From a virus: a DNA stretch of 49,845 nucleotides. Shown piece after piece: positions 1 to 12,507 of the stretch. The position numbers were made by a program, and so were the translations under genes. The notes beneath the pieces are model-generated. The model searched no databases. It saw nothing but the letters and a program-made list of their open reading frames with translations, and was not told the origin of the DNA. Numbering within the stretch: position 1 is the first letter of the stretch; each line of letters starts with the position of its first letter. The stretch spans positions 1-49,845 of the IMG/VR virus record IMGVR_UViG_3300005617_000468. The stretch is one strand, 5' to 3'.

Positions 1-80
1 CCGAGCTGGCAGCGTTTGATGCCTGCGGCGAGGGTGCGTTGCAGGGGCGTTGTGCCCCAGTCGTCATTCTGTAGTGACAT
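1..80 (-). CDS. partial hypothetical gene at left edge
   Basis: An ATG at 80 opens a leftward frame that stays open to the window edge (26 codons, beginning MSLQNDDWGTT). It lies 61 bases downstream of the preceding leftward gene and would be the last visible member of the early operon. I do not recognise it and only the N-terminus is visible. Confidence 0.45.
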   Translation of the reverse strand, partial: MSLQNDDWGTTPLQRTLAAGIKRCQL

Positions 81-141
81 GTGATGTGTCCTGTGGTTGT
101 GCGCCGGTCAGGGCGCGGTTGTTGTTGACTGCGTTTGCAGA

Positions 142-690
142 TTAGCAGGCGCACCGAAACGAGCGCGGCGGGTCATTCACCTTGCGCCCAGTAAAGCGTT
201 CGTAGTGCGCCCAAAACTCGTCGTTCGGCTCAAGCCCGTCGCCGCATTCAAGGTCAGTGCCGAAGCATCCGTGCTCGGCGCAAGCAATCAAGTGCTCAAA
301 GCGCGTGCCTTCTTCCGGTTCATAGCTAAACAGGCGATGGGCGAAATCATCCAGCCACTTGCGCGATGCTTCCCGTGCGTCGTCGTTTGGCGTTTGTACA
401 AACGCCGGATGCGTCCAATCATGGCGCAGGCTGGTGATGGTCTGCGGGTAAAGGCACAGCCAGAACACGTCGCCGGGTTGTGCGGTATGCGCCAAGAACG
501 GGTCAACGATGCCGATGCAAGCCTCGTCAGCTTCAGCACCGCGCACAGAGCGCACTACGCCGGGCTTTACGAGGACGACGTGCTGGCCAGGATAAAGGCG
601 CTCGTCGGAGGTAACAGGCGCGATGGCAATGTGGATGGCGTCACGCTGAGCCGAAGCGGGCGCAAGTGTGCCGAGTTTGATGTCGCTCAT
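142..690 (-). CDS. hypothetical phage protein, 182 aa
   Basis: Leftward gene starting 3 bases after the stop of the gene before it, so co-transcribed with the recombination genes. The protein reads as a soluble globular protein with a central GDVFWLCLYPQTITSLRHDW stretch, an aromatic/acidic helix (ASRKWLDDFAHRLFSYEPEE) and a Cys-containing C-terminal half (CAEHGCFGTDLECGDG). There is no signal peptide or membrane span. Proteins with this Trp-rich pattern recur in environmental phages without assigned function. Placement beside a Sak4-like ATPase and a RecB-like nuclease suggests a role in DNA metabolism, but that is inference only. Confidence 0.75.
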   Translation of the reverse strand: MSDIKLGTLAPASAQRDAIHIAIAPVTSDERLYPGQHVVLVKPGVVRSVRGAEADEACIGIVDPFLAHTAQPGDVFWLCLYPQTITSLRHDWTHPAFVQTPNDDAREASRKWLDDFAHRLFSYEPEEGTRFEHLIACAEHGCFGTDLECGDGLEPNDEFWAHYERFTGRKVNDPPRSFRCAC

Positions 691-693
691 AGG

Positions 694-909
694 TCAGGGC
701 GCCGTTTGAGCGGGCGCGGGTGCGTCCGCCATTTCTACCCAGCAACAACCCTCCGCTTCATCGCAGAGGTGCTGGTAAATCTTGCCGCATGAGCAGGTCC
801 AGCGGTCGCCGGTGACGCGGTAGCCGGACATGGCCCAGCGGCTCTGCCGAATCAGTATGTCGCAGTTATGTCGCTTTTCGCCAATACGCTTGGGTTCTTG
901 TGCGTTCAT
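694..909 (-). CDS. small Cys-rich protein, 71 aa
   Basis: Starts at ATG 909, whose last two bases are shared with the TGA (908-906) of the upstream gene, the ATGA overlap used throughout this operon. A longer in-frame start at 972 would run back into the upstream gene and is not needed. The protein has CSC...C...CC cysteines (WTCSCGKIYQHLCDEAEGCC), suggesting a small metal-binding fold, and a Pro/Ala tail. Function unknown. Confidence 0.7.
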   Translation of the reverse strand: MNAQEPKRIGEKRHNCDILIRQSRWAMSGYRVTGDRWTCSCGKIYQHLCDEAEGCCWVEMADAPAPAQTAP

Positions 910-1697
910 GCGCTCGGTGCGGTTTGCGCCGTGGACGGCGCGGGCGCGTCCGGCAAAAAGTATTTGTCCCAATAAGCCCGCACAACGCCGTCAACGCGCT
1001 CGCTAATGAGAATTTCCTGCCCGGTAAGATGCTGGCAGCGCGAGCCGCAGTTGACGGTGTCGCTGGTTTTGAAGTTGATGTACACCTGGTTCGCGAAGTT
1101 GCGCCACACATAGCCGAGGCTGGAGCAACGGCTGGCGACGATGGCGCGAACCTTGCCCGTAAGTGCGATATCCTGGGCGGCGACCTCTTGCTGCCCTTTG
1201 CGCTCGATATACTTCTCGCGTACGTGTCCAAGCAAAACGCACTCGTCCGCGGCCTTGCAGAACAGCCAGAGCGTTTCGCCCATTGCTTCGCGCAAGCGAC
1301 CGTAGCCCGCGCCCTGCGGCAGTTCCACAATGGACGTGCCTTGGAAGTCCTTACCGAGCACGCTTTTCTTGTACTGGGCGAGCGCGTAGGGATCGCAGAG
1401 CGCTTCGACCTCGTCGATGGTGTCGATGACGAGGCGGCGGCAGGCGGGAGTGCCCGCTTCACGCAACGCGATGAGCTTCGCCAGAACCGCCTGAAGATGC
1501 GCCATGTCGCGTATGTTGATCTTGCGCGCGGTGACGAAATCGGCGCCGGCAGGCTCCAGTTCGAGAATGAGCGAGTCGGGCAACAAGGCGGCGATCGTGG
1601 TTTTGCCGCCCTTGGGCGGGCCGTAGAGGAGAGAGAGTTGCGGGTTGCGGCGCGACGGCGGAACGGGCGCGGTCGGAATGTTGATGGGGTCGCTCAT
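906..1697 (-). CDS. AAA_24 / Sak4-like RecA-fold ATPase
   Basis: A 263-residue P-loop ATPase. Walker A is GPPKGGKT at residues 26-33 and Walker B is in RRLVIDTIDEVEAL (about 87-100). This layout, a near N-terminal P-loop after a short Pro-rich leader with the acidic strand some 60 residues later, is that of the phage AAA_24 group, which includes Sak4-type single-strand annealing/recombination ATPases related to RecA/UvsX. It overlaps its neighbours by 4 bases on both sides and lies near a PD-(D/E)XK nuclease (1909-2865), so the two probably form a phage recombination module (resection plus annealing). No SSB was recognised nearby. The family assignment is good; the precise biochemical role is inferred. 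Confidence 0.82.
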   Translation of the reverse strand: MSDPINIPTAPVPPSRRNPQLSLLYGPPKGGKTTIAALLPDSLILELEPAGADFVTARKINIRDMAHLQAVLAKLIALREAGTPACRRLVIDTIDEVEALCDPYALAQYKKSVLGKDFQGTSIVELPQGAGYGRLREAMGETLWLFCKAADECVLLGHVREKYIERKGQQEVAAQDIALTGKVRAIVASRCSSLGYVWRNFANQVYINFKTSDTVNCGSRCQHLTGQEILISERVDGVVRAYWDKYFLPDAPAPSTAQTAPSA

Positions 1698-1912
1698 GGT
1701 GCCGCCTCCCTACGCCCTGCCGCTGCGAGGCGGTCGGCGAGCCGTGCTTTGACCAAGTCGCGCAGTTGACGCTCGCGGTTCTCGGCTTCGACACGCAGCA
1801 ATTGATTCATCCACTCGCGACACACGTCGCACAGTTTGTTTTCAGCGGCGATGCGCTCCATGTGGAGTTCGTTGAGCACGCCTTCGGCTTCAAGCAGTTC
1901 GGCGTCAGTCAT
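1694..1912 (-). CDS. small helical protein between nuclease and ATPase, 72 aa
   Basis: ATGA overlaps on both sides place it between the PD-(D/E)XK nuclease and the Sak4-like ATPase. The sequence is almost wholly charged helix (EAEGVLNELHMERIAAEN..., VEAENRERQLRDLVKARL) with one CDVC pair, so a short coiled coil is likely. It could be an accessory subunit of either enzyme. No known family recognised. Confidence 0.65.
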   Translation of the reverse strand: MTDAELLEAEGVLNELHMERIAAENKLCDVCREWMNQLLRVEAENRERQLRDLVKARLADRLAAAGRREAAP

Positions 1913-2865
1913 GGTGTCCCCTCGGGTTGTGCGCCGTCGCGGGCGCGTTCGCGTTGCTTGGCGGCTTCGGCATCTTCAAATTCGTCAGTGGCGAGCTTCA
2001 GCGGGCGGTCGCTGGGCGGCAGTACACAAACACCAATGTACTCGCAGCACCCGAAAGTATGGCGGCAACAACCAAGTTCAGCGCACGCCATCGGCCACGA
2101 GTCATGGTCCTGCGGGTCGCGTTCAAGAATCTCGCGGGCCTTGCGAAGCGTATGACGACGCCACTCGTCAACACGGTCCTGCGGGAAGAACAGTCCGCCG
2201 TCCTTGGGAAAGGCGTAGGCGACGCCGGTCTTGCTCGGCTTGCGCATGATAATGCGAACAGGTTGAACGCCAGCGACGGACTTGTTGGGATGCTGCACCT
2301 GCCACGAATAGATATAGCCCATGAACTGGCCGCTATTCTGCATCGCTTTGATTTGGGCGTCCTCGTCGCGGCTGCTACTTTTCCAATCGACTATCCAGCG
2401 ACGGCCGTCTTGGTCAACGCCAACGAGGTCGCGGCGAAACTCCCACATAATACGGGCGGGCACTAAATCAGCGCAACCCATGTCCTGCGGTTTTCGGGCT
2501 ACGTGGACAATGCCAAGCTCGACGACGCCCTGTTGTTCCACTTCCTCAATGGTCCAGCCAGTGAACGTGCTCGCATGCTCCGCGCGGAAAGCCGCGAGCG
2601 CATCCTTCAAATATGGCGCGGTCCTATACTCTTTCTCGCTCGCCGCAATGGGCGTCTCAGCCAGCACCGCGTCAATCGCCGCTTCCTGCGCCGCCACGTC
2701 CTTGCCGGTTTGGAGCGCATGCAACGCTCCGTGGATGGCGGTGCCAGCGATGAGGCCGCTGGAGGTGCGCACCGGACGGCGGTCGAGTACCTTGTACATT
2801 CTGTACGCGGCAGGGCAGCGCGAGTACATGCCTAGCGACGAGGAGGAGAGCGTCAGCGTTGTCAT
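1909..2865 (-). CDS. PD-(D/E)XK nuclease with Cas4/AddB-type cysteine cluster
   Basis: A 318-residue RecB-family nuclease. The N-terminus LSSSSLGMYSRCPAAYRMYK carries the SxxxxxxCPxxY motif with C17. GTAIHGALHAL (41-51) gives the conserved His. Motifs II/III are the strands ending VDWK (D160, K162), and GQFMGYIYSW supplies the QxxxY helix (Q180, Y184). A C-terminal cluster (C261, C266/C267, C273/C274, C280) together with C17 matches the four-cysteine pattern that holds a 4Fe-4S cluster in Cas4 and AddB. It is thus likely a DNA-end resecting exonuclease partnering the Sak4-like ATPase 200 bases downstream. No cas genes or CRISPR repeats are present, so this is not evidence of CRISPR. Confidence 0.85.
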   Translation of the reverse strand: MTTLTLSSSSLGMYSRCPAAYRMYKVLDRRPVRTSSGLIAGTAIHGALHALQTGKDVAAQEAAIDAVLAETPIAASEKEYRTAPYLKDALAAFRAEHASTFTGWTIEEVEQQGVVELGIVHVARKPQDMGCADLVPARIMWEFRRDLVGVDQDGRRWIVDWKSSSRDEDAQIKAMQNSGQFMGYIYSWQVQHPNKSVAGVQPVRIIMRKPSKTGVAYAFPKDGGLFFPQDRVDEWRRHTLRKAREILERDPQDHDSWPMACAELGCCRHTFGCCEYIGVCVLPPSDRPLKLATDEFEDAEAAKQRERARDGAQPEGTP

Positions 2866-3119
2866 GCGACCACCGACCTTTCGCCTGCCGCATGGGCGCG
2901 GCGTTCTTCGACCAGGGCGGCGATGGCGGCTGCGGCGATGCCCGTGCTGCCCAGCAAAGCATTGCGCTTGTTCGCTGGCGCACTCGCTTCAAGCAAGCAA
3001 CAGATCGCGTGGACAAGCTGCGGGCCGCTGAGGCTCGTGGGTACGGCCTCCTCAATGAGTTGAATTGCGCCTTGGGCAAGAGCGATGCCGTCGAGGTCTT
3101 TTTGGGTGAGGAGGGTCAC
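2862..3119 (-). CDS. hypothetical, 85 aa
   Basis: Joined to its neighbours by ATGA overlaps. Composition is Ala/Leu-rich with predicted helices (AIQLIEEAVPTSLSGPQLVHAICCLLEAS, and IAAAAIAALVEERRAHAA). Hydrophobic stretches are too short and interrupted for a clear membrane span. No family recognised; position immediately upstream of the nuclease is its only context. Confidence 0.6.
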   Translation of the reverse strand: MTLLTQKDLDGIALAQGAIQLIEEAVPTSLSGPQLVHAICCLLEASAPANKRNALLGSTGIAAAAIAALVEERRAHAAGERSVVA

Positions 3120-3436
3120 GCTTTGCCTTTGATGATGCGGTTCAGGGCGCGAAGGATGTTGCGCTTGGGCGTTTGCACAAAGGCGCGTCCGACTGCTCTA
3201 AGACGGTCATTGATGCGATAGGTCGGCATACCGAACAAATTGGCCAAGTCTGTTTCAAGCGCGTTGAAGTGAGGCGTGTATCGCGGAATCTTTTGCAACG
3301 CTGCAATGTGCCCAACCGCACAATGACGCCCGCGCAAGTCGTCGTAATCGCCAACGCACCATTGACTGGACGGGATGCGTTTGAGCCGTTCAGCGTATTG
3401 CTTCGCCGCGTGTACTTTTAGTGGGTCGGTTTTCAT
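3116..3436 (-). CDS. hypothetical, 106 aa
   Basis: Shares ATGA overlaps with both neighbours. Short basic protein with several helices. The segment CVGDYDDLRGRHCAVGHIAAL followed by LFGMPTYRINDRLRAVGRAF and a Lys/Arg tail resembles a common class of small phage and host proteins of the 'RCAVGHI' type, which have no firm function. Net positive charge would suit nucleic-acid contact, but I see no definable motif. Confidence 0.65.
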   Translation of the reverse strand: MKTDPLKVHAAKQYAERLKRIPSSQWCVGDYDDLRGRHCAVGHIAALQKIPRYTPHFNALETDLANLFGMPTYRINDRLRAVGRAFVQTPKRNILRALNRIIKGKA

Positions 3437-3627
3437 GGCGTCATCTTCGCCGACCGCGCCAGCGTCCGTTCAATCTCCTCGTGCGTCACGACGAGGCCGT
3501 AGTGGACGGCGAGCCGGTGCGCGGCCAACTCGAACAGCGTCGCCGTCGCGATGCCGGGAAAGCCCTGCTCGTGGTTGCGCACCACGGTTTCGATCAACTC
3601 GCTGCGGTCGGTGGCGGTCATATTCAA
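3433..3627 (-). CDS. hypothetical, 64 aa (TTG or ATG start)
   Basis: Small acidic helical protein (TDRSELIETVVRNHEQGF..., HEEIERTLARSAK). Two starts are possible. TTG at 3627 makes a TTGA overlap with the upstream stop, in keeping with the 4-base overlaps of the operon; ATG at 3621 is canonical but leaves a 2-base gap. I list the longer form because TTGA and GTGA overlaps recur elsewhere in this genome. Function unknown. Confidence 0.6.
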   Translation of the reverse strand: MNMTATDRSELIETVVRNHEQGFPGIATATLFELAAHRLAVHYGLVVTHEEIERTLARSAKMTP

Positions 3628-4082
3628 AAAGGGGGTTCGTCGTCGCCCACGTCAGGCTGTGCCGGTGCCTGCGCGGGTTGCGGCATGGCCTTCGCGCCAG
3701 CCAGCGCCATCTCGATTTGCGCCCGCAGCCACGGCTTGGGCGGCGGGTCGCTGCGGTCAAGGAGAAAGCGCAGGTACTGTGCGTCCTCACGTGCAATGCG
3801 CGACAACGGCCACGCGCTCTTGGGCGATGATGGCCCGTACTTTGAGCCGTACGGCATCGTCGGGTCTTTGAAGCGCGGCTCTGTCGGCGTCGAAGCCGAC
3901 ACGGGCGCAGCGGTCACTTGCTTGATGCTGCTGGGGTTCGCCGCGAGTGCGTCGTCAATCTCACGCCGCGTGCAGCCGAGCGAGCGGAACTCGCGCAGCG
4001 CGGCCTGGGCGTCGTCGTCGCTCACGTCAGACGAGGTGACGCGGCGAAACAAGGCAGCGAGCTTGGAGCGGAGGTCGGTCAT
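3624..4082 (-). CDS. DUF3820-like protein, 152 aa
   Basis: The C-terminal half shows the DUF3820 pattern (putative quorum-sensing-regulated virulence factor family): MPYGSKYG, then PLSRIAREDAQYLRFLLDR, then KPWLRAQIEMAL. This corresponds to the family signature of a small 'MPFGKYKG' turn, 'PLxxIPxxYLxWLL' helix and 'LRxxIExEL' helix. The N-terminal about 65 residues (acidic helix DDDAQAALREFRSLGCTRREIDDALA) are an addition not typical of the family. The family is common in phage replication or recombination clusters, and the biochemical role is unknown. It overlaps both neighbours by 4 bases. Confidence 0.6.
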   Translation of the reverse strand: MTDLRSKLAALFRRVTSSDVSDDDAQAALREFRSLGCTRREIDDALAANPSSIKQVTAAPVSASTPTEPRFKDPTMPYGSKYGPSSPKSAWPLSRIAREDAQYLRFLLDRSDPPPKPWLRAQIEMALAGAKAMPQPAQAPAQPDVGDDEPPF

Positions 4083-4369
4083 GGCGCGGGTGTTGCGGGG
4101 GCTTTGTGCAATCGCACAGCATCAGCTTCCGCTTTCGCTTCTGCTTCCTTTTTCGCTCGGGCATCCCTTCGCGCACGATGCTCCTCAGCCTGTTTCATCG
4201 CGTAGTCAAAAGCAGTTTCAGTGCGCTTTTCTTCATCGCCGTCAATCTCCTCTAGGATGTCATAGGCGTTTTGTACCGCAGTTTCAACTTCGATGGGATT
4301 TTCGGGATGTGCCCATTGCCCGCCTACAATCGAAGCAGCCATTAACGCTAACAATTCTCGGTCTCTCAT
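4079..4369 (-). CDS. hypothetical, 96 aa
   Basis: Helical, strongly charged protein. The N-terminal part (MRDRELLALMAASIVGG... NAYDILEEID) resembles short phage proteins of unknown function that begin 'LLALMAA', and the C-terminal part is a Lys/Glu/Ala coiled-coil-like tail (KQAEEHRARRDARAKKEAEA). Overlaps neighbours by 4 bases and is the second gene of the leftward early operon. Confidence 0.6.
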   Translation of the reverse strand: MRDRELLALMAASIVGGQWAHPENPIEVETAVQNAYDILEEIDGDEEKRTETAFDYAMKQAEEHRARRDARAKKEAEAKAEADAVRLHKAPATPAP

Positions 4370-4602
4370 CGTTTGCTCGCTTTCTCTGGTTCAGGTTCAA
4401 TCACGAACAGTTCGTCCAGCGACACACCGCTCTTATGCGAAATCTGCGCAGCGGTATCCAATGTCATGCCGCCTGCGTCCTTCTTCGACATGAAGCGGTA
4501 AAGTATCGTCGGATGAATCCCCCATTTGTCGGCAGCCGCGTTTACCGAACCGTGAACGCGCTCGACAAGCAGGGTGAACTTTTCAGAAGGGCGAACGTTC
4601 AT
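4366..4602 (-). CDS. Cro/CI-type HTH regulator, 78 aa
   Basis: First gene of the leftward early operon. Residues about 9-60 form an HTH_3-type fold: FTLLVERVHGSVNAAADKWGI, then a recognition-helix region HPTILYRFMSKKDAGG, then LDTAAQISHKSGVSLDELF. The start ATG lies 9 bases after a TAATTT box (see promoter 4612-4640), so the transcript is probably leaderless. It lies divergent from the RepA-like gene, with inverted TGTCAA/TTGACG boxes between them, the usual arrangement for a regulator controlling both directions. Confidence 0.8.
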   Translation of the reverse strand: MNVRPSEKFTLLVERVHGSVNAAADKWGIHPTILYRFMSKKDAGGMTLDTAAQISHKSGVSLDELFVIEPEPEKASKR

Positions 4603-4611
4603 GTTTCGCGC

Positions 4612-4640
4612 AAATTACACACGACGCGAAAATGTGTCAA
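4612..4640 (-). promoter_or_regulatory. leftward early promoter
   Basis: Reading leftward: TTGACA at 4640-4635, 17-base spacer, TAATTT at 4617-4612, then 9 bases to the ATG of the HTH gene at 4602. The expected transcription start falls within 2-3 bases of the ATG, leaving no room for a ribosome-binding site. It would drive the whole operon down to the left edge. Confidence 0.7.
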
Positions 4641-4651
4641 CACTTTTTTAA

Positions 4652-4679
4652 TTGACGCTATACACAGCCTATTTAAGCT
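4652..4679 (+). promoter_or_regulatory. rightward promoter of the RepA-like gene
   Basis: TTGACG at 4652-4657, 16-base spacer, TAAGCT at 4674-4679, then 6 bases to GTG at 4686. It is back to back with the leftward promoter: GTCAA (4636-4640) and TTGAC (4652-4656) form an inverted repeat 11 bases apart. That could also be an operator for the adjacent HTH protein. The promoter supports the GTG start over the later ATG at 4806. Confidence 0.65.
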
Positions 4680-4685
4680 GTCGTT

Positions 4686-5681
4686 GTGCCTGCCGCTATT
4701 TTCAAACCGGGCCTCTCTGGCGCAACGCTGGACGAGGCGTTGGAAACGTGCGGCGAGAGTCCACCAGTCCTTATTGACCAACTCATCAGCGACAATTCCA
4801 CGGTGATGCTTTCAGGCGATGGCGACACCGGGAAAAGCATCATCAGCCTTTGTGTCGCGGCGGCCGCCAGCAGCGGGCTTCCAGTTTGGGGCCAGTTCGA
4901 TTGCCGAACGCCACTGAAGATTTATTACCTTGTCGGCGAGCGCAACGCCCGAGAGTCCTTAATTCGCCTGCGCCAGATGCGAGCCAAGTTGCCGTTGAAC
5001 AAAGAGAACTTTTCCATCAACGGCAGCTTGGTAGGAACCATCGACTTGAGCAGCGACATCTACGTCGCCAGCTTCATCGACTTTCTGAAGAAGGATTGCC
5101 CCGGCCTGCAACTGCTATTTCTTGAGCCGATCTACGCGATGGTCCCCGTTTGGGACGAGCGGCATGTTCTCGCTTTGGTTCGTAACCTTACGCTCATCAA
5201 GGCCCAACTGAATTGCGCCGTTTGGCTCACCCACCACAACACCAAATCCATTGTCAGCACTTGGGGGAGCGAGAAGCAACGCGCAAACGCTTACTATGGA
5301 CCTGTTTGGCTGTACAACCACGTCGAGGGGCAATACAGCGTCACCAAAACCGGGGACAACACCCGCAAGTTGACGATGCAGAAGGACACAAATCGAATCA
5401 TGCTCTCCGAAATCCCGCTCGTTTACGACTCCTCGACATGCACGGTCGAGATGGACCCCAACGACCTGCTGGCGCCGCTCAAGGTACGGGATCGCATGTA
5501 TGTCTTCCTGCGACGGTGCGAGAACGAGAACCGCGGCTTTACCTTGAATGAAATCATGCTCCAAACTTGTGTGTCCCGCGCTACCTTCTTTCGCATCTGC
5601 GATCTGCCTCCGTGGAACGGCAGAATCAGCAACACAAACGCGCCCGGAAAAGAGGCTTTTTACACCATCGCGCCACGGTGA
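4686..5681 (+). CDS. RepA-like AAA_25 replication ATPase/helicase
   Basis: A 331-residue RecA-fold ATPase of the RepA/AAA_25 group. It shows an N-terminal GESPPVLIDQLISDNSTVML lead-in, Walker A GDGDTGKS (44-51), a YLVGERNARESLIRLR segment (81-96) that matches the family's 'GExxxxxLxxR' motif, Walker B LQLLFLEPIY with E147, and the motif-III-like strand VWLTHHNTK (179-187). The C-terminal about 60 residues (NEIMLQTCVSRATFFRICD) look like a winged-helix domain. Family members are hexameric replicative helicases in plasmids and phages. With no DNA polymerase or DnaB seen here, this is the best candidate replication initiator/helicase. The putative iteron array begins 40 bases after its stop. Confidence 0.8.
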   Translation: MPAAIFKPGLSGATLDEALETCGESPPVLIDQLISDNSTVMLSGDGDTGKSIISLCVAAAASSGLPVWGQFDCRTPLKIYYLVGERNARESLIRLRQMRAKLPLNKENFSINGSLVGTIDLSSDIYVASFIDFLKKDCPGLQLLFLEPIYAMVPVWDERHVLALVRNLTLIKAQLNCAVWLTHHNTKSIVSTWGSEKQRANAYYGPVWLYNHVEGQYSVTKTGDNTRKLTMQKDTNRIMLSEIPLVYDSSTCTVEMDPNDLLAPLKVRDRMYVFLRRCENENRGFTLNEIMLQTCVSRATFFRICDLPPWNGRISNTNAPGKEAFYTIAPR

Positions 5682-5722
5682 ATTTTCCCATTTTCGGGAC
5701 GCTGTAAGTCATTGATGCCGTA

Positions 5723-5887
5723 GTGAGACACCCCCCCTTTTTTCAATTTTGCTCAGCAAAACGCGAAATTCGCGTCGTTTTTGGGGTGTCTCAGCCTCTT
5801 GTGCATTGCATCGGTGAGACACCCCTGCGATTGTTCGCAACTTGCGTTGGTTATAGGCGCTTGCAAAGTGCCTCTAGGGTGTCTCAC
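5723..5887. repeat. four GTGAGACACCCC boxes with nested palindromes (candidate origin/operator)
   Basis: The 211-base gap between the converging RepA-like gene and the 82-aa gene holds a 12-base box in four copies of alternating orientation: GTGAGACACCCC at 5723-5734 (+), its complement with one mismatch at 5783-5794 (-), a perfect copy at 5814-5825 (+), and a complement with one mismatch at 5876-5887 (-). Box centres are spaced 60, 31 and 62 bases. Between boxes 1 and 2 lie two abutting perfect palindromes, TTTTGCT-C-AGCAAAA (5747-5761) and CGCGAA-A-TTCGCG (5762-5774). Between boxes 3 and 4 lie hairpins TGCGA-TTGT-TCGCA (5826-5839) and a weaker one at 5857-5873. Placement next to a replication ATPase makes an origin likely; operators or a bidirectional terminator are alternatives. 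Confidence 0.6.
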
Positions 5888-5892
5888 GTTTT

Positions 5893-6141
5893 TTACTCTG
5901 TATTACCACCATACGGTGATACAGGTAGAGAAAGATACTGGTCGCCGCTTGCGCGCCGCCTCTCAAATCGCGCTTGCCGCAACTGCGAATTCTCCTGCCT
6001 CAACCGCTCGCATTCCCAGCGCCACCGTTCGCACTCAGCCGCCAGCCAAAGCAGCGTGCTCCGGTGCGCCTCCAGGACCACTTGCAGGCGAAACGCGGGC
6101 TGTTGTAGCTGGCGCTCGGTCATTGGGCGCAAGGCTACCAT
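5893..6141 (-). CDS. coiled-coil protein, 82 aa
   Basis: Second gene of a two-gene leftward unit. I choose ATG 6141, with a GAGG 8 bases upstream and 14 bases after the previous stop; an in-frame start at 6240 would overlap that gene by 85 bases. The C-terminal half is a leucine-zipper-like helix (AAECERWRWECERLRQENSQ) followed by an Arg cluster, the look of a small dimerising DNA-binding protein. It ends 5 bases from the last box of the 5723-5887 repeat array, so it may bind there; that is inference. Confidence 0.55.
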   Translation of the reverse strand: MVALRPMTERQLQQPAFRLQVVLEAHRSTLLWLAAECERWRWECERLRQENSQLRQARFERRRASGDQYLSLPVSPYGGNTE

Positions 6142-6155
6142 GTCGCGTGGCCTCG

Positions 6156-6557
6156 TCAACGGGGCGCAGGTGCTGACTTGCGCCGTTGCAGGCCCGTCAG
6201 CGTCACCAACTTGGCAAGGTTCGCGTCTGTCCAGTCGCAATAGAAGTTCGCTTCCCGATCGCCGACGGCCTTAGCACGCAGCCAATCGCCAGCTTCGCGG
6301 CATTTGCGAATGAATTGCGAGCCTGTCACCGTCAGCCCCAACTTACCCACTCCAAACTCCCATATCTGGCTCCTGTGTCCTCTCCCATCGACGAACCAGC
6401 CGTCCTCATGGCGGCGTAGGCGATACTTTTGGGCCAGTGTAACGAGCAATTCCCGGTTTTCGGGCAATACGCCAAGCGTTTCGCCCGTCAGCACCTTCCG
6501 CGACTCAATTACCGGCCCTACAAGTAAAGCACCGTTGGTCATGTATTTTGAATTCAT
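6156..6557 (-). CDS. hypothetical, 133 aa
   Basis: First gene of a short leftward unit. The start is ATG 6557, placed 7 bases after a TAATCT box; the reading frame continues upstream to a TTG at 6593, but that TTG is itself the -35 box. The protein is a globular alpha/beta sequence with many charged residues (YRLRRHEDGWFVDGRGHRS, GSQFIRKCREAGDWLRAK, FYCDWTDANLAKLVTLTGL). No motif or family recognised. Confidence 0.7.
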   Translation of the reverse strand: MNSKYMTNGALLVGPVIESRKVLTGETLGVLPENRELLVTLAQKYRLRRHEDGWFVDGRGHRSQIWEFGVGKLGLTVTGSQFIRKCREAGDWLRAKAVGDREANFYCDWTDANLAKLVTLTGLQRRKSAPAPR

Positions 6558-6564
6558 GCTGTAA

Positions 6565-6593
6565 AGATTATTGGTTGACAGTGGTGCGGTCAA
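6565..6593 (-). promoter_or_regulatory. leftward leaderless promoter
   Basis: Leftward TTGACC (6593-6588), 17-base spacer, TAATCT (6570-6565), then 7 bases to ATG 6557. It overlaps face to face with the rightward promoter at 6575-6603, so the two -35 boxes lie inside each other's spacers and the promoters should compete. Confidence 0.7.
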
Positions 6594-6603
6594 GCTGTAT
6601 TGT
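6575..6603 (+). promoter_or_regulatory. rightward leaderless promoter
   Basis: TTGACA (6575-6580), 17-base spacer, TATTGT (6598-6603), then 7 bases to ATG 6611. It mirrors the leftward promoter on the other strand, with the same 7-base gap to the start codon. Confidence 0.7.
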
Positions 6604-6610
6604 GCGCGGT

Positions 6611-6787
6611 ATGCAGCGACCTAGACGCAGCAACCAATCAACCCAACACCTTATGAGCGCCGCCTTTGCGCAACCTGGACCTAACAGGGTCGATGGCTGG
6701 TGCGGCTGTTACCGCACGCGCTCGCCAAATTGCCGCCGTGCCCCGGCAGCGCCCTGCTGCTATCTAGGCGGGGTGCGGCGGCGCTAA
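6611..6787 (+). CDS. small Arg/Cys-rich protein, 58 aa
   Basis: ATG at 6611 sits 7 bases after a TATTGT box, which is the main support for this short gene. The protein is basic and Cys-rich (GWCGCYRTRSPNCRR, APCCYLGG), suggesting metal binding. It ends 3 bases before the next gene. No family recognised. Confidence 0.5.
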   Translation: MQRPRRSNQSTQHLMSAAFAQPGPNRVDGWCGCYRTRSPNCRRAPAAPCCYLGGVRRR

Positions 6788-6790
6788 CGT

Positions 6791-7093
6791 ATGCAAGGAC
6801 TTATGAATGCGAAGTATCCGATAAAAGCACCGCAAGATTTCACTATAGAATGCGGGTGCCAGGTGCGATTCGATAACGACGGTTATGTGCGGCTCGCACA
6901 GTGCCCAATGCACACAATGGCCGCTGATTTGCACGATGTTCTTAAAACGATTGTGGATAAGTCGTACCTACGTCCCGGTAAACACGAGGATTGTCACGTC
7001 CACCCTGAATTGATTGAGGCGGGGCGAAGGGTGTTGGACGCAATCAAGCTCACATCTCCGCTCGCCGTCCCTGCCGAAAAGGGGGCACAATGA
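6791..7093 (+). CDS. hypothetical, 100 aa
   Basis: Rightward gene in the same unit as 6611-6787. ATG 6791 is the first start; a second ATG at 6803 has an AAGGA sequence 3 bases upstream and could be used instead. The sequence ECGCQVRFDNDGYVRLAQCP, followed by MHTMAADLHDVLKTIV, is a small Cys/His pattern common in short phage proteins (possibly zinc-binding), followed by a charged helix. Ends in an ATGA overlap with the next gene. Confidence 0.7.
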   Translation: MQGLMNAKYPIKAPQDFTIECGCQVRFDNDGYVRLAQCPMHTMAADLHDVLKTIVDKSYLRPGKHEDCHVHPELIEAGRRVLDAIKLTSPLAVPAEKGAQ

Positions 7094-7455
7094 CCTTGCA
7101 AGCCTTCATTCGCGACAATCCCGCCGAACTGGACGCCGCAATTGGCCGCGTCCTTGGTCACGTACCACGCACCGCAAGCTGCGATTGCCCGCGCTCAGGC
7201 ACAGACCACTACCACGAGCCGCCGCGCCTCAGCGACGCAGACAGGCGCGATTGGATACTCAATGACGCTGGCCTTTATCGCCATTGCGTCAACGCGACTC
7301 AAACCGTCCGAGGTAAAGGCGCTGGATCGCTTCGCCAAGCGCCAAGGGCTAAACCGAGCCGCGCTTATCGCCGAAGTGCTGCGAATCGCGCTAAAAACCA
7401 TGCGCCAGCGCACTTGACGCCCGCCCGCCTCGGTGCGCTTTACGCACCGGGGTAG
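7090..7455 (+). CDS. small phage protein with overlapping 3' end, up to 121 aa
   Basis: Starts in an ATGA overlap. The first about 65 residues (MTLQAFIRDNPAELDAAIGR, RTASCDCPRSGTDHYHEPPR, DRRDWILNDAGLYRH) match a widespread small phage protein that begins 'IRxNRAEIDxxI' and ends near 'ILNDEGLY'. The remaining about 55 residues are Arg/Ala-rich and look like the out-of-frame reading of the ribbon-helix-helix gene embedded at 7262-7417. The true protein is probably the N-terminal part, with a stop lost and the frame running on. Confidence 0.6.
   Translation: MTLQAFIRDNPAELDAAIGRVLGHVPRTASCDCPRSGTDHYHEPPRLSDADRRDWILNDAGLYRHCVNATQTVRGKGAGSLRQAPRAKPSRAYRRSAANRAKNHAPAHLTPARLGALYAPG
7262..7417 (+). 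CDS. ribbon-helix-helix (CopG-like) protein, 51 aa
   Basis: Lies wholly inside the 3' part of 7090-7455 in another frame. Residues about 12-45 (STRLKPSEVKALDRFAKRQG, then NRAALIAEVLRIALK) fit the RHH fold: a beta strand with alternating small/basic residues, helix A, a 'G-L-N/S-R' turn, and helix B. Dimeric RHH proteins bind short inverted repeats, and a perfect 12-base inverted repeat begins 45 bases after its stop (7462-7540). Likely a phage transcriptional regulator. The start is weakly marked (ATG 7262, no clear RBS), so translation probably depends on the surrounding gene. Confidence 0.6.
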   Translation: MTLAFIAIASTRLKPSEVKALDRFAKRQGLNRAALIAEVLRIALKTMRQRT

Positions 7456-7540
7456 CATTCGCCCCGTAAGCCACGCAAGCCGCGTTTACTGCTCAGACCA
7501 CCATACGACAGCGGAAACCCGCTCCCGATGGCTTACGGGG
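7428..7540. terminator. hairpin plus 12-base inverted repeat between converging genes
   Basis: A stem CGGTGCG/CGCACCG (7431-7437 and 7443-7449, loop CTTTA, extendable outward through a G-T pair) is followed by a perfect 12-base inverted repeat CCCCGTAAGCCA (7462-7473) and TGGCTTACGGGG (7529-7540). The right arm overlaps the stop of the leftward gene at 7533. Lying between converging units, this may be a bidirectional terminator, though no T run follows. The 12-base arms could instead be an operator for the neighbouring RHH protein. Confidence 0.45.
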
Positions 7541-7811
7541 TTGTCACGGGCACCAAAATCTCATGGTAACGGCGTTCTGACCTGTCTGCTGAGACACACG
7601 CCCAGCTATAAGAGCTGAAATCCTCGTTTCCGGCCAATACTTCGCGCTCTGGATAGTCCCGACCCATGATCCGCTCTGGCGGACGCGCTCGCACTTGATA
7701 GACCTCCCAATAAGCGCTGTGCGCCGCCTTGTACATCACCGCGGCACCGTCTCGTTTGACCAGCATCATCAGATGACCCGCCTGCTTGTAACTGTCAGGG
7801 ATTGTTTGCAT
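7533..7811 (-). CDS. hypothetical, 92 aa
   Basis: Single-gene leftward unit. ATG 7811 lies 6 bases after a TATCGT box. The protein is globular with aromatic residues (HSAYWEVYQVRARPPERIMG, EDFSSYSWACVSADRSERRY) and no membrane segment. I do not recognise a family; the strong promoter and absence of a credible competing frame support it. Confidence 0.65.
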   Translation of the reverse strand: MQTIPDSYKQAGHLMMLVKRDGAAVMYKAAHSAYWEVYQVRARPPERIMGRDYPEREVLAGNEDFSSYSWACVSADRSERRYHEILVPVTTP

Positions 7812-7817
7812 GGCGCA

Positions 7818-7845
7818 ACGATACCAGAACCACGCAAGCCGTCAA
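7818..7845 (-). promoter_or_regulatory. leftward leaderless promoter
   Basis: Leftward TTGACG (7845-7840), 16-base spacer, TATCGT (7823-7818), then 6 bases to ATG 7811. It is divergent from the rightward promoter at 7855-7882, with the two -35 boxes 9 bases apart as an inverted CGTCAA/TTGACA pair. Confidence 0.65.
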
Positions 7846-7854
7846 CCAACGCAC

Positions 7855-7882
7855 TTGACACGCTCGACGCTTCGTGTATCTT
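7855..7882 (+). promoter_or_regulatory. rightward leaderless promoter
   Basis: TTGACA (7855-7860), 16-base spacer, TATCTT (7877-7882), 6 bases, then GTG at 7889. It would transcribe the short 7889 gene and the clamp-like gene at 8067. Confidence 0.65.
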
Positions 7883-7888
7883 ACCCGC

Positions 7889-8089
7889 GTGCAACGTCAA
7901 CCTGCACCAACCAACAACGCCCGCTTTGCCGTGCGGCGCCTGCGTCTGGGCGTGGCCTCCACGCTCAGGTTGACCGCGGGCTGTCGCGCGGCTCTCACTA
8001 AACCGTATACAAACCAACGAAACCCAAGCCCCGTCAACATCCACGCCAGCAACCGCTCAAACCGTTGTGCTCCTCAGCAAAGAGCATGA
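7889..8089 (+). CDS. short basic leader peptide or protein, 66 aa
   Basis: GTG at 7889 is exactly 6 bases after the TATCTT box, matching the spacing of the other leaderless starts. The translation is Arg/Asn-rich and low in complexity (NNARFAVRRLRLGVAST...), overlaps the next gene by 23 bases and resembles nothing known. It may act mainly as a translated leader that delivers ribosomes to the GTG start at 8067. Confidence 0.4.
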   Translation: MQRQPAPTNNARFAVRRLRLGVASTLRLTAGCRAALTKPYTNQRNPSPVNIHASNRSNRCAPQQRA

Positions 8090-8684
8090 CATTACCGCGT
8101 TTGCGTCAGATGATCCCAGTCGCTTTGTCATTCAAGGTATCCACTACAACGCGACGGCTGGCTGTGTCGAAGCAACCAACGGCAGGCAGCTTATTCGCGT
8201 GCCTGTCGAGCGGTCCGAGGACTTCCCGCCAGTGTCAGGTGCGTTTACGCCTGCTTCTGACGTGATTATCCCATCAGCGCCGTATAAAAAGGCGCTGGCT
8301 GGCATTCCCCGGTCAAAGACATTGCCGATCATTGAGAACGTCGCCTTGTCCGCCGTCAACGGCTCGAAGGTGCGACTGACAACCAATGACTTAGACAACG
8401 AGAACAGCGTAGTTGCCAAGGCCATCGAAGGCAATTACCCCCGGCTGGACCTTGTTATTCCCACAAAACCGCCCGTGTTCACAATCGCCTTGTCAGCTTA
8501 CGAACTGCGAATCATCGCCGACTACTTCGCCCGGCACAGCGACGCCACAGCCGCCGTTACCTTCCAATTCACTGCCGACACCGAACCCGTTCGCTTCGCT
8601 GGCACCTTGGCCAGCGGCAAACGCGCTACTGGCGTGCTCATGCCGTGCCGCCTAACCCAGCATCCCAGCTATCCTCGCCATTGA
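8067..8684 (+). CDS. sliding-clamp (DnaN)-like protein, half length, 205 aa
   Basis: GTG 8067 is the only usual start in the open frame. Two beta-clamp-like repeats can be read. The first contains CVEATNGRQLIRVPVE (the DnaN 'ATDGHRL' strand) and ends near VRLTTNDLDNENSVVAKAIE. The second contains LSAYELRIIADYFARHSDA (like DnaN 'LLxALKALG'), a strand TVRFAG-type turn (EPVRFAGTLASG) and the terminal TGVLMPCRL, close to the DnaN ending 'VVMPMRL'. Bacterial DnaN has three such domains in about 370 residues; this has two, the size of T4 gp45 or PCNA subunits. It may replace or recruit host replication factors. Family call is moderate, function inferred. Confidence 0.6.
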   Translation: MLLSKEHDITAFASDDPSRFVIQGIHYNATAGCVEATNGRQLIRVPVERSEDFPPVSGAFTPASDVIIPSAPYKKALAGIPRSKTLPIIENVALSAVNGSKVRLTTNDLDNENSVVAKAIEGNYPRLDLVIPTKPPVFTIALSAYELRIIADYFARHSDATAAVTFQFTADTEPVRFAGTLASGKRATGVLMPCRLTQHPSYPRH

Positions 8685-8710
8685 CGCCCCTCCCTCCCTT
8701 GGCGTATCGT
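8681..8710 (+). promoter_or_regulatory. rightward leaderless promoter
   Basis: TTGACG (8681-8686) overlaps the stop codon of the clamp-like gene; an 18-base pyrimidine-rich spacer is followed by TATCGT (8705-8710) and 7 bases to ATG 8718. It adds a new transcript start within the rightward run. Confidence 0.6.
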
Positions 8711-8717
8711 CCGCCCA

Positions 8718-9062
8718 ATGAGCGCCGTTGCCGAATGCGTAGCTGATCCGCCCGCCTTACGTCCATCCAGACCGCCCGGCCCGCGCTCTGGCGTCCATCG
8801 CCTCTCCGCACTCACTCAAGCCATGGACCTGAAAGACGTTGCCTACCGCGATGGCACGGCCGACTCAACCCCCGTTCATATCAAAGCCGCCCTAATGCGT
8901 GCTTGGGTTGACCTACAAGAAATGGCGATGGCATTGCGCGGCCAGGGTAAGCCGAAACCAGTCGAGGCGCGCAACGCAGTTCGCAAGGTTCGCGGGTCGC
9001 AGAGTGTCGCGCCGATAGCGCCGGCAGTCGCGTCTAGTAACGCAGTTGACAAGAGCGCGTGA
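8718..9062 (+). CDS. hypothetical, 114 aa
   Basis: ATG is 7 bases after the TATCGT box. The protein has a Pro/Arg-rich N-terminal third, a central helix (IKAALMRAWVDLQEMAMALRG) and a Lys/Arg then Ala/Val-rich tail; net basic. No family recognised. The central segment resembles small phage proteins of the terminase-small or regulator size class, but I see no HTH. Confidence 0.6.
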   Translation: MSAVAECVADPPALRPSRPPGPRSGVHRLSALTQAMDLKDVAYRDGTADSTPVHIKAALMRAWVDLQEMAMALRGQGKPKPVEARNAVRKVRGSQSVAPIAPAVASSNAVDKSA

Positions 9063-9073
9063 TAGTGTAGGCT
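9046..9073 (+). promoter_or_regulatory. promoter followed by structured leader
   Basis: TTGACA (9046-9051), 16-base spacer, TAGGCT (9068-9073). Unlike the others it is not followed by a start codon at 5-9 bases; transcription would begin near 9080, about 118 bases before ATG 9198. Confidence 0.5.
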
Positions 9074-9085
9074 ACGGGCGTCGAA

Positions 9086-9167
9086 GGTCAAAGTTCGATG
9101 AACCGTCACGCAAAATTTGCCGCTGATCTGTGCGCCTCACGTAGCGCCCGCTCCGTGAACTTTGACC
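9086..9167 (+). repeat. 11-base inverted repeat in the 5' leader of the HTH gene
   Basis: GGTCAAAGTTC (9086-9096) and GAACTTTGACC (9157-9167) are perfect complements 60 bases apart, inside the presumed leader of the 9198 gene. It may be an RNA stem or a pair of operator half-sites. The right arm also contains TTGACC, so the arm could overlap a second -35 box. Confidence 0.45.
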
Positions 9168-9197
9168 GCGCGGGTCGGCGGCTTCCTTCATTACACA

Positions 9198-9533
9198 ATG
9201 AACCCACACAATACGGATGTTCACTCGATTCGCTACAGCGACGAAGTGAAACGTGAAGCCGTGGCGCGATTGCGAAACGGCGAGAGTTACAAAGCAGTCG
9301 CAGCGTCCATCGGTTGTCACACCAGCAACCTCTCAATATGGAAACGCAACGTCGAAGGCACAACGCCAGTGAAACGCGCTCACGGTTGCCCGCATTGCGC
9401 GGACCTTATCGCGGCGTTGCGCCTGGTGCTCGCAAGCGCCGATGGCTCGCACGCGCTCCGGGCCAGCGTTAATCAAATCGCGGAGCAGGCCATTGCTCGC
9501 GCCACACACAGCGACAAGGAGGCTGCGTTATGA
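9198..9533 (+). CDS. transposase-type HTH protein (Tnp_8/IS3 OrfA-like), 111 aa
   Basis: The N-terminal half YSDEVKREAVARLRNGESYK, then AVAASIGCHTSNLSIWKRNV, is the helix-turn-helix of transposase_8 / IS3 OrfA proteins. The C-terminal part has HGCPHCADLIAAL (CxxC) and a helix, not an integrase. No DDE transposase partner or terminal repeats lie nearby, so this is more likely a domesticated DNA-binding protein or regulator than an insertion sequence. I use ATG 9198; a TTG at 9162 lies within the inverted repeat. Confidence 0.65.
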   Translation: MNPHNTDVHSIRYSDEVKREAVARLRNGESYKAVAASIGCHTSNLSIWKRNVEGTTPVKRAHGCPHCADLIAALRLVLASADGSHALRASVNQIAEQAIARATHSDKEAAL

Positions 9534-9829
9534 ACGCCGCGTTAATTGAGATTGGCCCGAACCTGGTCGCTGCGCTCAATGAGCTGTATCCTGAATCGTC
9601 GCCGGTTGAGCAAATAGAGTTGCTGCTGTGTGAACACGATTTGCAGGCGCAAGCCGAAGTCACGGCCCTGCGCGCCGAACTATCCGCGCTCGCCGCAAAA
9701 CTAGACGCGACGCGCGCCGCTTGTGAAGCGGTGTTAGCGTTCTCGCGCACCTACGACAATCTGCTAGGCCACATACCCAACGCCGACCAGACTCGCCTTG
9801 TGCGGCAACTGCGCGCCGCCCTCGCCTAA
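9530..9829 (+). CDS. coiled-coil hypothetical, 99 aa
   Basis: ATGA overlap with the HTH gene. The sequence is helical: LVAALNELYPESSPVEQIEL, then a heptad-like stretch QAEVTALRAELSALAAKLDA. The last 40 residues form a helix ending NADQTRLVRQLRAALA. A rho-independent terminator follows 20 bases after the stop. No family recognised. Confidence 0.65.
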   Translation: MNAALIEIGPNLVAALNELYPESSPVEQIELLLCEHDLQAQAEVTALRAELSALAAKLDATRAACEAVLAFSRTYDNLLGHIPNADQTRLVRQLRAALA

Positions 9830-9849
9830 CCCTCACCGCTACCATCACG

Positions 9850-9879
9850 CCCGGCCCGTTCACGCGCGCTGGGTTTTTT
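9850..9879 (+). terminator. rho-independent terminator
   Basis: Stem CCCGGC (9850-9855) with GCTGGG (9868-9873), one G-T pair, 12-base loop, followed directly by TTTTTT (9874-9879). It closes the rightward unit ending at 9829. The remaining 210 bases up to 10089 show no credible gene. Confidence 0.65.
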
Positions 9880-10089
9880 ATACCCGTGTACTTGTACCGC
9901 TTCGCCCGCCGATTGCGGCTCGCGCCGCATCGACGTTCTCCGCTATGGCAGGCGCACGCTGCGACCCGCCCAGCGCCGGGCAGGCGGCAAAAAAGAGAGC
10001 CTAGGTTGCTTTGTCCGCGCGACCGTCCCCGCACCGTCCGGGTGGCATGGGCGCAGGTGGGCGAGATGCGTCGCGTTGGGACTCCGGCT

Positions 10090-10227
10090 TTAGCTGGGGC
10101 GGCGTCTGGGGAAGCGGGTGCGGCGGACGAGTTTTAGCCACGGGTCGGTGCGCTGGGCGATGAGGGCAACGTCGAGCGGTGCGGTGTACGTACTATAGGC
10201 TGGCTTGCGGCGGGGCTTGCGTTTCAT
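10090..10227 (-). CDS. very basic small protein, 45 aa
   Basis: Last gene of the leftward small-protein operon, joined by an ATGA overlap (ATG 10227-10225, preceding TGA 10226-10224). It begins MKRKPRRKPAYSTYTAPLDV and ends KLVRRTRFPRRRPS. Both ends are Arg/Lys clusters, so nucleic-acid binding is possible. Too short for family assignment; the overlap is the main support. Confidence 0.5.
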   Translation of the reverse strand: MKRKPRRKPAYSTYTAPLDVALIAQRTDPWLKLVRRTRFPRRRPS

Positions 10228-10640
10228 GGGGCGGGCGGAGCGGCGACGTTCTGGGCCGCGATACGGTCAATAGCGGCTTGGACGACGGAGACGCGGAGGT
10301 TGGTGCGGACGGCGATGGAGGCAGGGGAGCGGCCTTTGGCGAGGTGATGGGCGATTTCGCGGTCGAAGCCCAAGCGGGCGGTACGGCTAGAGGTGCGGGC
10401 AGCAGCGCGGCCGCGAAGCCGTTTATTGGTTTGGCGTTTGTGATAGCTGTTGCGGTTGGAGTCAAGAACGCGTTGGTAATTGTCGCCGGTGGCCCGCCAG
10501 TGGGCGTTAGCGGCGAGCTTTTTAAGGCGGGCCTCGGGATGGGTGGCGTAATGTTGGCGTTGGTAACACGCGCCGCACAGTCCCTTGGCCCTCACAGGGC
10601 GACCGCATTGCGGCGTGGCGCACAGCTTCGCGGCAGGCAT
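10224..10640 (-). CDS. zinc-finger DNA-binding protein, 138 aa
   Basis: I choose ATG 10640, 14 bases after the previous stop; an in-frame ATG at 10727 would overlap that gene by 73 bases. The N-terminus has a four-Cys zinc site, LCATPQCGRPVRAKGLCGAC, followed by YQRQHY, the form seen in many phage HNH-associated and Ogr-like fingers. The C-terminal half is helical with HTH-like spacing (FDREIAHHLAKGRSPASIAV, RTNLRVSVVQAAIDRIA). No nuclease motif is present. Probably a small regulator. Confidence 0.65.
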   Translation of the reverse strand: MPAAKLCATPQCGRPVRAKGLCGACYQRQHYATHPEARLKKLAANAHWRATGDNYQRVLDSNRNSYHKRQTNKRLRGRAAARTSSRTARLGFDREIAHHLAKGRSPASIAVRTNLRVSVVQAAIDRIAAQNVAAPPAP

Positions 10641-10654
10641 GTCAGAGGGAGGCG

Positions 10655-10945
10655 TCAAGGGACGGGCGCATCGGAACGCAGGCGCGTTCCAGACGGGGCG
10701 TGGGGGTGGGGTAAATCTTTCATGCAAATGGCACAGCGATAAAAGGTCACCAACTTAATCCTTAATGGGTGGACGCGGTTCACGCTGCCAACTTCTTCTG
10801 GTACGCACTTGTGCGTCTTGTCTTTAGCGTAAATTCGGCGCAACGTCGCTTCGTGTCGTCGCATCTCGCGCCAGTATGCTTTGAATGTCTTTCCGCATGT
10901 GCGGTTGATGAGCGCTTCAACGTTCTTGTAATGGGTGCGGTTCAT
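10655..10945 (-). CDS. hypothetical, 96 aa
   Basis: ATGA overlap with 10942-11310. Basic, helical protein with a CxxC (YRCAIC) near the C-terminus and two further Cys, so a partial zinc site is likely. The N-terminal part (NVEALINRTCGKTFKAYWRE) has no recognisable family. Confidence 0.6.
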   Translation of the reverse strand: MNRTHYKNVEALINRTCGKTFKAYWREMRRHEATLRRIYAKDKTHKCVPEEVGSVNRVHPLRIKLVTFYRCAICMKDLPHPHAPSGTRLRSDAPVP

Positions 10946-11310
10946 GGGTCGGGCGGCACGGGACGGGAGGGCGTTGCGGGCGGTGGGGGCACGCTGACAC
11001 AGGCGTGCTCAATGGGGAACAGCGGGCCGCCGCACTTACCGCATCGGCCTCGGTTGAAATGGCGGAGGTCGGCTTCGAGTGTCGTTGTGCGCTTGCCGCA
11101 TGACGCGCATTCTACGGTTTCGTCGGACGACGTGGCGGACTCATCGGAGCACGGCGGTGCTCCGGCTAGGGCGGCGTCAATGAGTGCGAGCGCGTCGGTA
11201 GTCGCGTTGCGATGGCGGGTGTAGGCTGGACTGCTGGTGCCTGTGCGGAACGTTTCGAGGAGCGGGTTGGAGCGCCCGCGCTCCGAGGCGGTCGTGTGTG
11301 GCGTGCTCAT
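10942..11310 (-). CDS. zinc-ribbon protein, 122 aa
   Basis: Start ATG 11310 forms an ATGA overlap with the 59-aa gene; the frame is open further upstream but that would swallow the smaller gene. The C-terminal third has a four-Cys ribbon: VECASCGKRTTTLE, then GRCGKCGGPLFPIEHAC. The N-terminus is polar and probably disordered, and the tail is Pro-rich. Likely a nucleic-acid or protein-binding adaptor of unknown role. Confidence 0.65.
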   Translation of the reverse strand: MSTPHTTASERGRSNPLLETFRTGTSSPAYTRHRNATTDALALIDAALAGAPPCSDESATSSDETVECASCGKRTTTLEADLRHFNRGRCGKCGGPLFPIEHACVSVPPPPATPSRPVPPDP

Positions 11311-11486
11311 GGGCATGGCTTGGCGGGTGTCGGCGAAGGCGCTTTTGGCGAAGGGATTCTCATGGCTTGCGACCATTCAAATTCACTGGCGCATTCGGCG
11401 CAGGTCACTCTGTTGTCCGGCGATTGGTCGGCGGGAGCGAAGTTATGCGCTCCGCACTTGCACCACCAGTAAAGCTGTTTGCTCAT
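11307..11486 (-). CDS. small zinc-ribbon protein, 59 aa
   Basis: Short gene with an ATGA overlap at each end (upstream at 11483-11486, downstream at 11307-11310). The protein begins MSKQLYWWCKCGAHNFAP and continues VTCAECASEFEWSQAM. The pairs CxC and CxxC make a complete four-Cys zinc ribbon, then a Pro/Lys tail. The double 4-base overlap and the intact Cys pattern support reality despite the length. Confidence 0.65.
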   Translation of the reverse strand: MSKQLYWWCKCGAHNFAPADQSPDNRVTCAECASEFEWSQAMRIPSPKAPSPTPAKPCP

Positions 11487-11677
11487 GCCGTCTCCTTCAG
11501 TTCATCGCGCCAATTGCCCGCCAGCCCTTCGCCGTGCTCGCGACACACAGGCATCGCCTCGGGCTTGTGCCAAGGCAACGGGCGTGGCGTCCAAGTATGT
11601 GTAGCAGGTCGCCCGCAGCGCGGCCAGCCGCCGTCGCGCTTCGCCGCGTCGAACAGGATGAATTGGCAGGTGGTCAT
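11483..11677 (-). CDS. small Cys-containing protein, 64 aa
   Basis: ATG 11677 overlaps the upstream stop as ATGA. The protein reads MTTCQFILFDAAKRDGGWPR, CGRPATHTWTPRPLPWHKPE, AMPVCREHGEGLAGNWRDEL. Its C..C..C-x2-H layout (C4, C21, C45, H48) is that of a small zinc knuckle. An identical style is common in phage 'CxxCGRPAxH' proteins. Role unknown. Confidence 0.6.
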   Translation of the reverse strand: MTTCQFILFDAAKRDGGWPRCGRPATHTWTPRPLPWHKPEAMPVCREHGEGLAGNWRDELKETA

Positions 11678-11883
11678 GGCGATCCTTCCTTGCCCGCGGC
11701 GCTGCGACCCGCCTGGGCCTCGCAGAATCGGTGCGCTTCGCACCAGAGCGCGTGGGCAACCCCAACGGCGCGCTTGTAGGATTTCTCCGTCCACTCCGTT
11801 TCGCTGGACAGCAACGGCGCTGCAATCAACGCAAGCTCGGTTGGCGTGGGTTGTGGTGCGTGGATGATGGCTTCGTCGCTCAC
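11674..11883 (-). CDS. hypothetical, 69 aa (GTG start)
   Basis: I take GTG 11883, which forms a GTGA overlap with the upstream stop, rather than the longer frame to 12006. The resulting protein (MSDEAIIHAPQPTPTELALI... WTEKSYKRAVGVAHALWCEAHRFCEAQAG) is mostly helical and acidic. No family recognised. Confidence 0.55.
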   Translation of the reverse strand: MSDEAIIHAPQPTPTELALIAAPLLSSETEWTEKSYKRAVGVAHALWCEAHRFCEAQAGRSAAGKEGSP

Positions 11884-12499: not shown

Positions 12500-12507
12500 A
12501 GCGTCGC

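Follow-up and report, generated by a model that had tools for sequence, protein, structure and literature searches.

A four-box stem-loop array following a RepA-like helicase gene is a probable replication origin of a soil bacteriophage

Theta origins of the iteron type are built of tandem direct repeats, about one per two helical turns, with DnaA boxes and an AT-rich unwinding element adjoining. In pRN1 of Sulfolobus, a 100-nt stem-loop located 54 bp past the replication gene is required for replication, and replication is still supported when this stem-loop is relocated elsewhere (PMC4234260). A downstream stem-loop origin has been proposed for the Bordetella phage BIP-1 as well (PMC4234260). 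In RSF1010, RepA unwinds the DNA and thereby exposes the ssiA and ssiB hairpins for priming (PMC4234260; PMC4434180).

The DNA studied here comes from a soil bacteriophage (IMG/VR record IMGVR_UViG_3300005617_000468), and the whole stretch that was analysed, 49,845 nt, is referred to as the window. As judged by comparison with other phages, the element at positions 5723-5887 is probably where replication of this phage originates, or the part of the origin at which the initiator is loaded, and it would serve the RepA-like helicase encoded upstream. The features of the region are as follows.

4366-4602, minus strand: Cro/CI-like HTH protein (phrog_3037 transcriptional repressor, 7.8e-4), divergent from the RepA-like gene
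4686-5681, plus strand: RepA-like AAA_25 (RecA-fold) helicase, hexameric-type by likeness, 331 aa (PF13481, 5.9e-17)
5723-5887: whole element, proposed replication origin, made of stem-loop units 5724-5793 and 5815-5886
5723-5734, plus strand: box 1, GTGAGACACCCC, exact; left arm of stem-loop unit 1
5747-5761: inner palindrome TTTTGCTCAGCAAAA, arms TTTTGC and GCAAAA around TCA (sequence and fold)
5761-5775: inner palindrome ACGCGAAATTCGCGT, arms ACGCGAA and TTCGCGT around A, then CGTTTTT; terminator-like on the plus strand
5783-5794, minus strand: box 2, CTGAGACACCCC, one mismatch; right arm of unit 1, forming an 11-bp perfect inverted repeat with box 1
5814-5825, plus strand: box 3, exact; left arm of unit 2
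5825-5838: inner palindrome TGCGATTGTTCGCA in unit 2, arms TGCGA and TCGCA around TTGT (sequence and fold)
5854-5872: inner imperfect palindrome AGGCGCTTGCAAAGTGCCT in unit 2 (sequence and fold)
5876-5887, minus strand: box 4, GTGAGACACCCT, one mismatch; right arm of unit 2, with GTTTTTT next
5893-6141, minus strand: small coiled-coil-like ORF, convergent with repA (ORF list)

The 10-mer TGAGACACCC occurs exactly four times in the element, in the order +, -, +, -. The 11-mer TGAGACACCCC is exact in three of the boxes and the 12-mer GTGAGACACCCC in two (boxes 1 and 3), boxes 2 and 4 each differing from the latter by one base. The sequence-only reading of this DNA had reported four copies of the 12-mer; the four alternating sites stand, and it is the 10-mer, not the 12-mer, that is exact in all of them. 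The alternating orientation and the spacings of 60, 31 and 62 bp between box centres given in that reading are both correct by the box coordinates. It had also been asked whether the box is scattered through the genome, and it is confined to this site, with no further copy at one mismatch or less to the 11-mer in the rest of the window. Dinucleotide shuffling of the window, repeated 200 times, never produced a comparable array, defined as any 10-mer with four copies of alternating orientation inside 250 bp, and no other place in the window has as strong a local-repeat peak (score 36 here against 21 for the runner-up).

The most fitting description of the array is a pair of neighbouring stem-loop units, 70 and 72 bp long and separated by 21 bp. 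In both, the outer stem measures 10-11 bp, the loop has 48-52 nt and small palindromes lie inside. These nested palindromes, noted earlier from the letters, are real and are seen both in the sequence and in the fold; TTTTGCTCAGCAAAA and ACGCGAAATTCGCGT overlap by one base (5761). Relative to shuffles, the single strand folds far better, with z-scores of -5.7 as DNA and -5.5 as RNA; for the stem-loops past the helicase gene the fold z-scores range from -5.7 to -6.8. The segment 5735-5782 is 60% AT, versus 40% overall.

Good folding as RNA, together with the terminal inverted boxes that flank the 165 bp, would also suit a mobile-element remnant, an attachment site or a structured non-coding RNA with no relation to replication. 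However, no direct target duplication is visible, an Rfam search of the array region gave no match, and none of the 90 ORFs scanned in the end regions of the window belongs to an integrase or resolvase family. Furthermore, a scan of viral contigs for the paired box pattern gave a single other match, in a ~99% identical relative (IMGVR_UViG_3300010401_000039, hereafter G001) in which the array has zero substitutions, and an unrelated array occupies the same place in the more distant relative G016 described below. An origin of the array in any of these three ways is accordingly regarded as very improbable, and a widespread MITE or mobile element was rejected on the outcome of the contig scan.

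The claim that the array lies directly after a gene for a RepA-like ATPase was confirmed by the PF13481 match, and the array starts 42 bp past the stop of that gene. The best PDB sequence match of the protein is RepA of RSF1010 (1g8y, E=0.0012), which is also the top PDB fold match of the predicted model (E=1.4e-6). Model confidence (pLDDT) is about 80-93 in the core and about 52-75 at the C-terminus, where helices are predicted at residues 264-280, 287-294 and 298-305 and strands at 314-316 and 326-328. With moderate confidence, the last 70 residues may thus follow a winged-helix-like order (helix-helix-helix-strand-strand). No homologues of RepA were found in plasmids, and genome-contig searches with RepA and with a Sak4 alignment returned no confirmed relatives.

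To the left of the HTH gene lie genes for a PD-(D/E)XK exonuclease and then a Sak4-like annealing protein. On the other side, the ORF at 5893-6141 has no family matches, and it starts with ATG in the window and with GTG in G001 (substitution at 6141). Just past this ORF, the 566 bp at 6164-6729 of the window are replaced in the ~99% identical G001 by 251 unrelated bp, and this swap is, as judged from the two sequences, a recombination joint. A leader-like sequence, GGCGGCGCTAAC, is common to window positions 6777-6800 and positions of about 8045-8070 in L122; in each phage it lies ahead of the next gene transcribed rightward, and the flanking genes differ.

One syntenic relative, G016 (IMGVR_UViG_3300009156_000033), was available for comparison, L124 having been rejected as an independent relative because it is the same phage as G016 (99.98-100%). 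G016 is related to the window phage at the level of 58% identity in PolA, 63% in Sak4, 51% in the exonuclease and about 84-85% in the HTH protein. The gene divergent from its HTH gene likewise encodes an AAA_25 protein (3.8e-13), which is unalignable with RepA of the window and for which a single-sequence model is poor except at the C-terminus. Directly past the stop of this gene, CTTGCACCTTGCA boxes alternate as +, -, +, -, the second being a loose copy, and their centres are spaced by 29.5, 27.5 and 30 bp. They form two hairpins on folding, with a modest z-score of -2.6 to -2.8. DNA similarity between the window and G016 ends at window position 4657, before repA, and is back near 8676; hence, the helicase gene and the array were replaced within one block, which in this single comparison carries other genes too.

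These data bear on the protein that may recognise the boxes. As an alternative to an origin, the sequence-only reading had offered a regulator's operator array, which could serve the HTH protein, the coiled-coil protein or RepA autoregulation. Cooperative operators typically consist of repeated inverted boxes at regular spacing, and a repressor-like gene is nearby. However, between the window and G016 the HTH protein keeps 85% identity and the boxes are completely different, which weakens this alternative and makes the HTH protein an unlikely binder. In addition, the array is located where two genes end, with no promoter-like site found beside it, and the divergent HTH/repA promoter has no copy of the box. 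An operator function is therefore considered improbable. The helicase changed together with the boxes, which makes the RepA-like helicase their likely binder.

More remote relatives were collected by an alignment-based search, which gave 73 viral loci encoding AAA_25 proteins about 22-29% identical to the RepA-like protein; most are PriCT_2-AAA_25 primase-helicase fusions, and the broad statistics rest mainly on these. In 48 of 70 loci (near-identical G001 included), against 4.0 expected, the 250 bp richest in repeats within the whole locus were at the helicase 3' end, i.e. centred -100 to +400 bp from the helicase stop. Non-redundant sets gave 31/45 (<90% identity), 23/33 (<70%) and 10/16 (<60%). 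Repeat scores downstream of the helicase gene were compared with two backgrounds and were higher than both, namely 268 ends of other genes (p about 1e-28) and the remaining noncoding gaps (p about 8e-10). Box orientation in the regions after the helicase was mixed in 28 of 46 and purely direct in six. Among six named phages, downstream repeats or stem-loops were present in five (Aster, BCJA1c, Vegas, Javan74 and Javan311) and absent in Castelnaud. Several of the named-phage proteins are annotated as 'replicative DNA helicase, repA', and no origin after the helicase is annotated in the annotation tables of five named phages.

An array-type structure of unrelated letters thus recurs, by these comparisons, at the same position in many phages. 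This recurrence of the structure, at one position but in different letters, makes an origin the most likely identity of the array. The origin-like function beside the RepA-like gene that had been suggested from the letters is well supported by this comparison, i.e. by the repeats and stem-loops at the helicase 3' end in most distant relatives and by G016, where another array takes that position.

A bidirectional terminator between convergent genes was also considered, in which the nested hairpins and T-runs would stop repA from the left and the ORF at 5893-6141 from the right. The genes are convergent and hairpins are expected between such genes, the array folds strongly, ACGCGAAATTCGCGT-CGTTTTT is terminator-like on the plus strand, and GTTTTTT follows box 4. 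Yet four copies of a motif and two 11-bp stems with 48-52-nt loops are not needed for termination, and terminator-like sites in the region are at the level of chance (3 found, 3.2 expected). Moreover, irrespective of exact repeats, a fold z-score below -3 was obtained for 32 of 39 regions downstream of the helicase (non-redundant set) and for two of the 48 other noncoding gaps in the related loci, and in the named relatives the genes downstream of the helicase are co-directional and the repeats are still present. pRN1 has both a terminator and the required stem-loop, of which the stem-loop alone matters (PMC4234260). A terminator as the explanation of the array is hence judged unlikely, and termination as an additional side role is plausible.

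Two further signals of an origin were sought. GC skew, which had been proposed as a check around 5.8 kb, gave no origin signature there, the cumulative skew peaking near 4 kb and then dropping. No DnaA box is present in the array, the nearest being TTATCCACA at 6952, more than 1 kb off. This single perfect DnaA-box-like site is on the minus strand inside the ORF at 6791-7093, and one such site is about the chance expectation.

The earlier argument for an origin from the lack of a DNA polymerase in this genome fails, because the window is probably incomplete and the ~99% identical G001 carries a family-A polymerase. G001 joins the right and left ends of the window through 8.1 kb that are absent from the window and that encode a split family-A polymerase and a C5 methyltransferase, arranged as follows.

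G001 (L032), 2721-6901: UDG plus 3'-5' exonuclease ORF; polymerase ORF; C5-cytosine methyltransferase ORF between them; HNH/AP2 ORF alongside

The phage therefore probably has its own family-A DNA polymerase, encoded in the missing 8.1 kb, and the statement that it has none is probably wrong.

In the rest of the window, the 945-aa ORF at 18059-20896 (minus strand) includes a Hint/intein-splicing domain. Several relatives match this ORF over its whole length but with DNA shorter by about 1.08 kb, which suggests intein-free alleles. These relatives were discarded as comparators for the array, as they share only the 13-21 kb block and are devoid of RepA, the boxes, AAA_25 and DnaB. More generally, in phages sharing the 13290-21000 block the replication module is absent, with no recognised AAA_25, DnaB or PolA. 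The left part of the window (1-13000), with the replication and early genes, is on this comparison mosaic relative to 13290-21000. The structural half includes homing-endonuclease-like ORFs (phrog_314) at 26628-27575 and 39492-40673, both on the plus strand, and one matched stretch of G001 terminates inside the latter.

If the array is the origin, the winged-helix-like C-terminal tail of the RepA-like protein would bind the boxes, and the two sets of inverted boxes would load helicase rings on both strands, at the two units. Unwinding, aided by extrusion of the stem-loops, would then expose single-stranded hairpins for priming. Among the scanned ORFs of the window and the main ORFs of the 8.1 kb of G001, none matched a primase or Rep family, a search in which divergent forms could be missed; hence, priming would probably involve a host primase or an unrecognised protein. 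The primed strands would be extended by the phage family-A polymerase and host factors.

Few environmental phages have a known origin, and in most lineages examined a look at the noncoding DNA behind the AAA_25 gene is enough to anticipate a structured repeat element. The proposal made for pRN1 and BIP-1 would thus be extended from prim-pol/SF3 initiators to RepA-like helicases, and a helicase gene with 200 bp would make a candidate minimal replicon of about 1.3 kb. The pattern suggests that helicase specificity and origin boxes swap as one cassette. It is close to an even call whether the AAA_25/RepA-like phage helicases form a wide class of helicase-plus-cognate-origin cassettes, in which each helicase recognises a rapidly diverging semi-palindromic box array after its own gene and the gene and origin are exchanged as one portable module. 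The phage studied here would then be the minimal stand-alone case, with no primase and two stem-loops.

Among described systems, theta-plasmid iteron origins and the PLE RepA_N origin (PMC7145576) share with this locus several copies of a short motif beside an initiator gene. Unlike in iteron origins, the boxes here alternate, are 31-62 bp apart and have no adjoining DnaA box. The array is thus not organised like iterons, as had been thought, and with its alternating boxes in two stem-loop units it is closer to the stem-loop origin of pRN1. Like the oriV of RSF1010/IncQ, it has paired hairpins near a gene for a RepA-type helicase, the RSF1010 protein being the closest solved structure. However, RepC with its iterons and the RepB' primase were not found among the scanned ORFs, and the hairpins here are larger than the ssi hairpins, nested, and built with one common box. 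A repeat or stem-loop cluster right after the helicase gene is also characteristic of the PriCT_2-AAA_25 phages (Streptococcus Javan, Bacillus BCJA1c and Faecalibacterium Aster), in which, unlike here, the proteins are fusions and the boxes differ, are often present in more copies and are partly direct. In pRN1, the initiator is a prim-pol/SF3 helicase and a single loop is closed by a 21-bp stem, whereas here the protein is AAA_25 only, with no primase domain, and two loops share a repeated box. Nevertheless, a noncoding stem-loop follows the replication-protein gene at about 50 bp in both (54 bp in pRN1, 42 bp here), and in both its structure and position are conserved and its sequence is not. 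The initiator of pRN1 has a C-terminal winged helix, and the same order of elements is predicted, with moderate confidence, for the tail of the RepA-like protein. The array would accordingly be a variant within the initiator-adjacent stem-loop origins, and the rapidly diverging arrays after AAA_25 genes would be the more interesting result.
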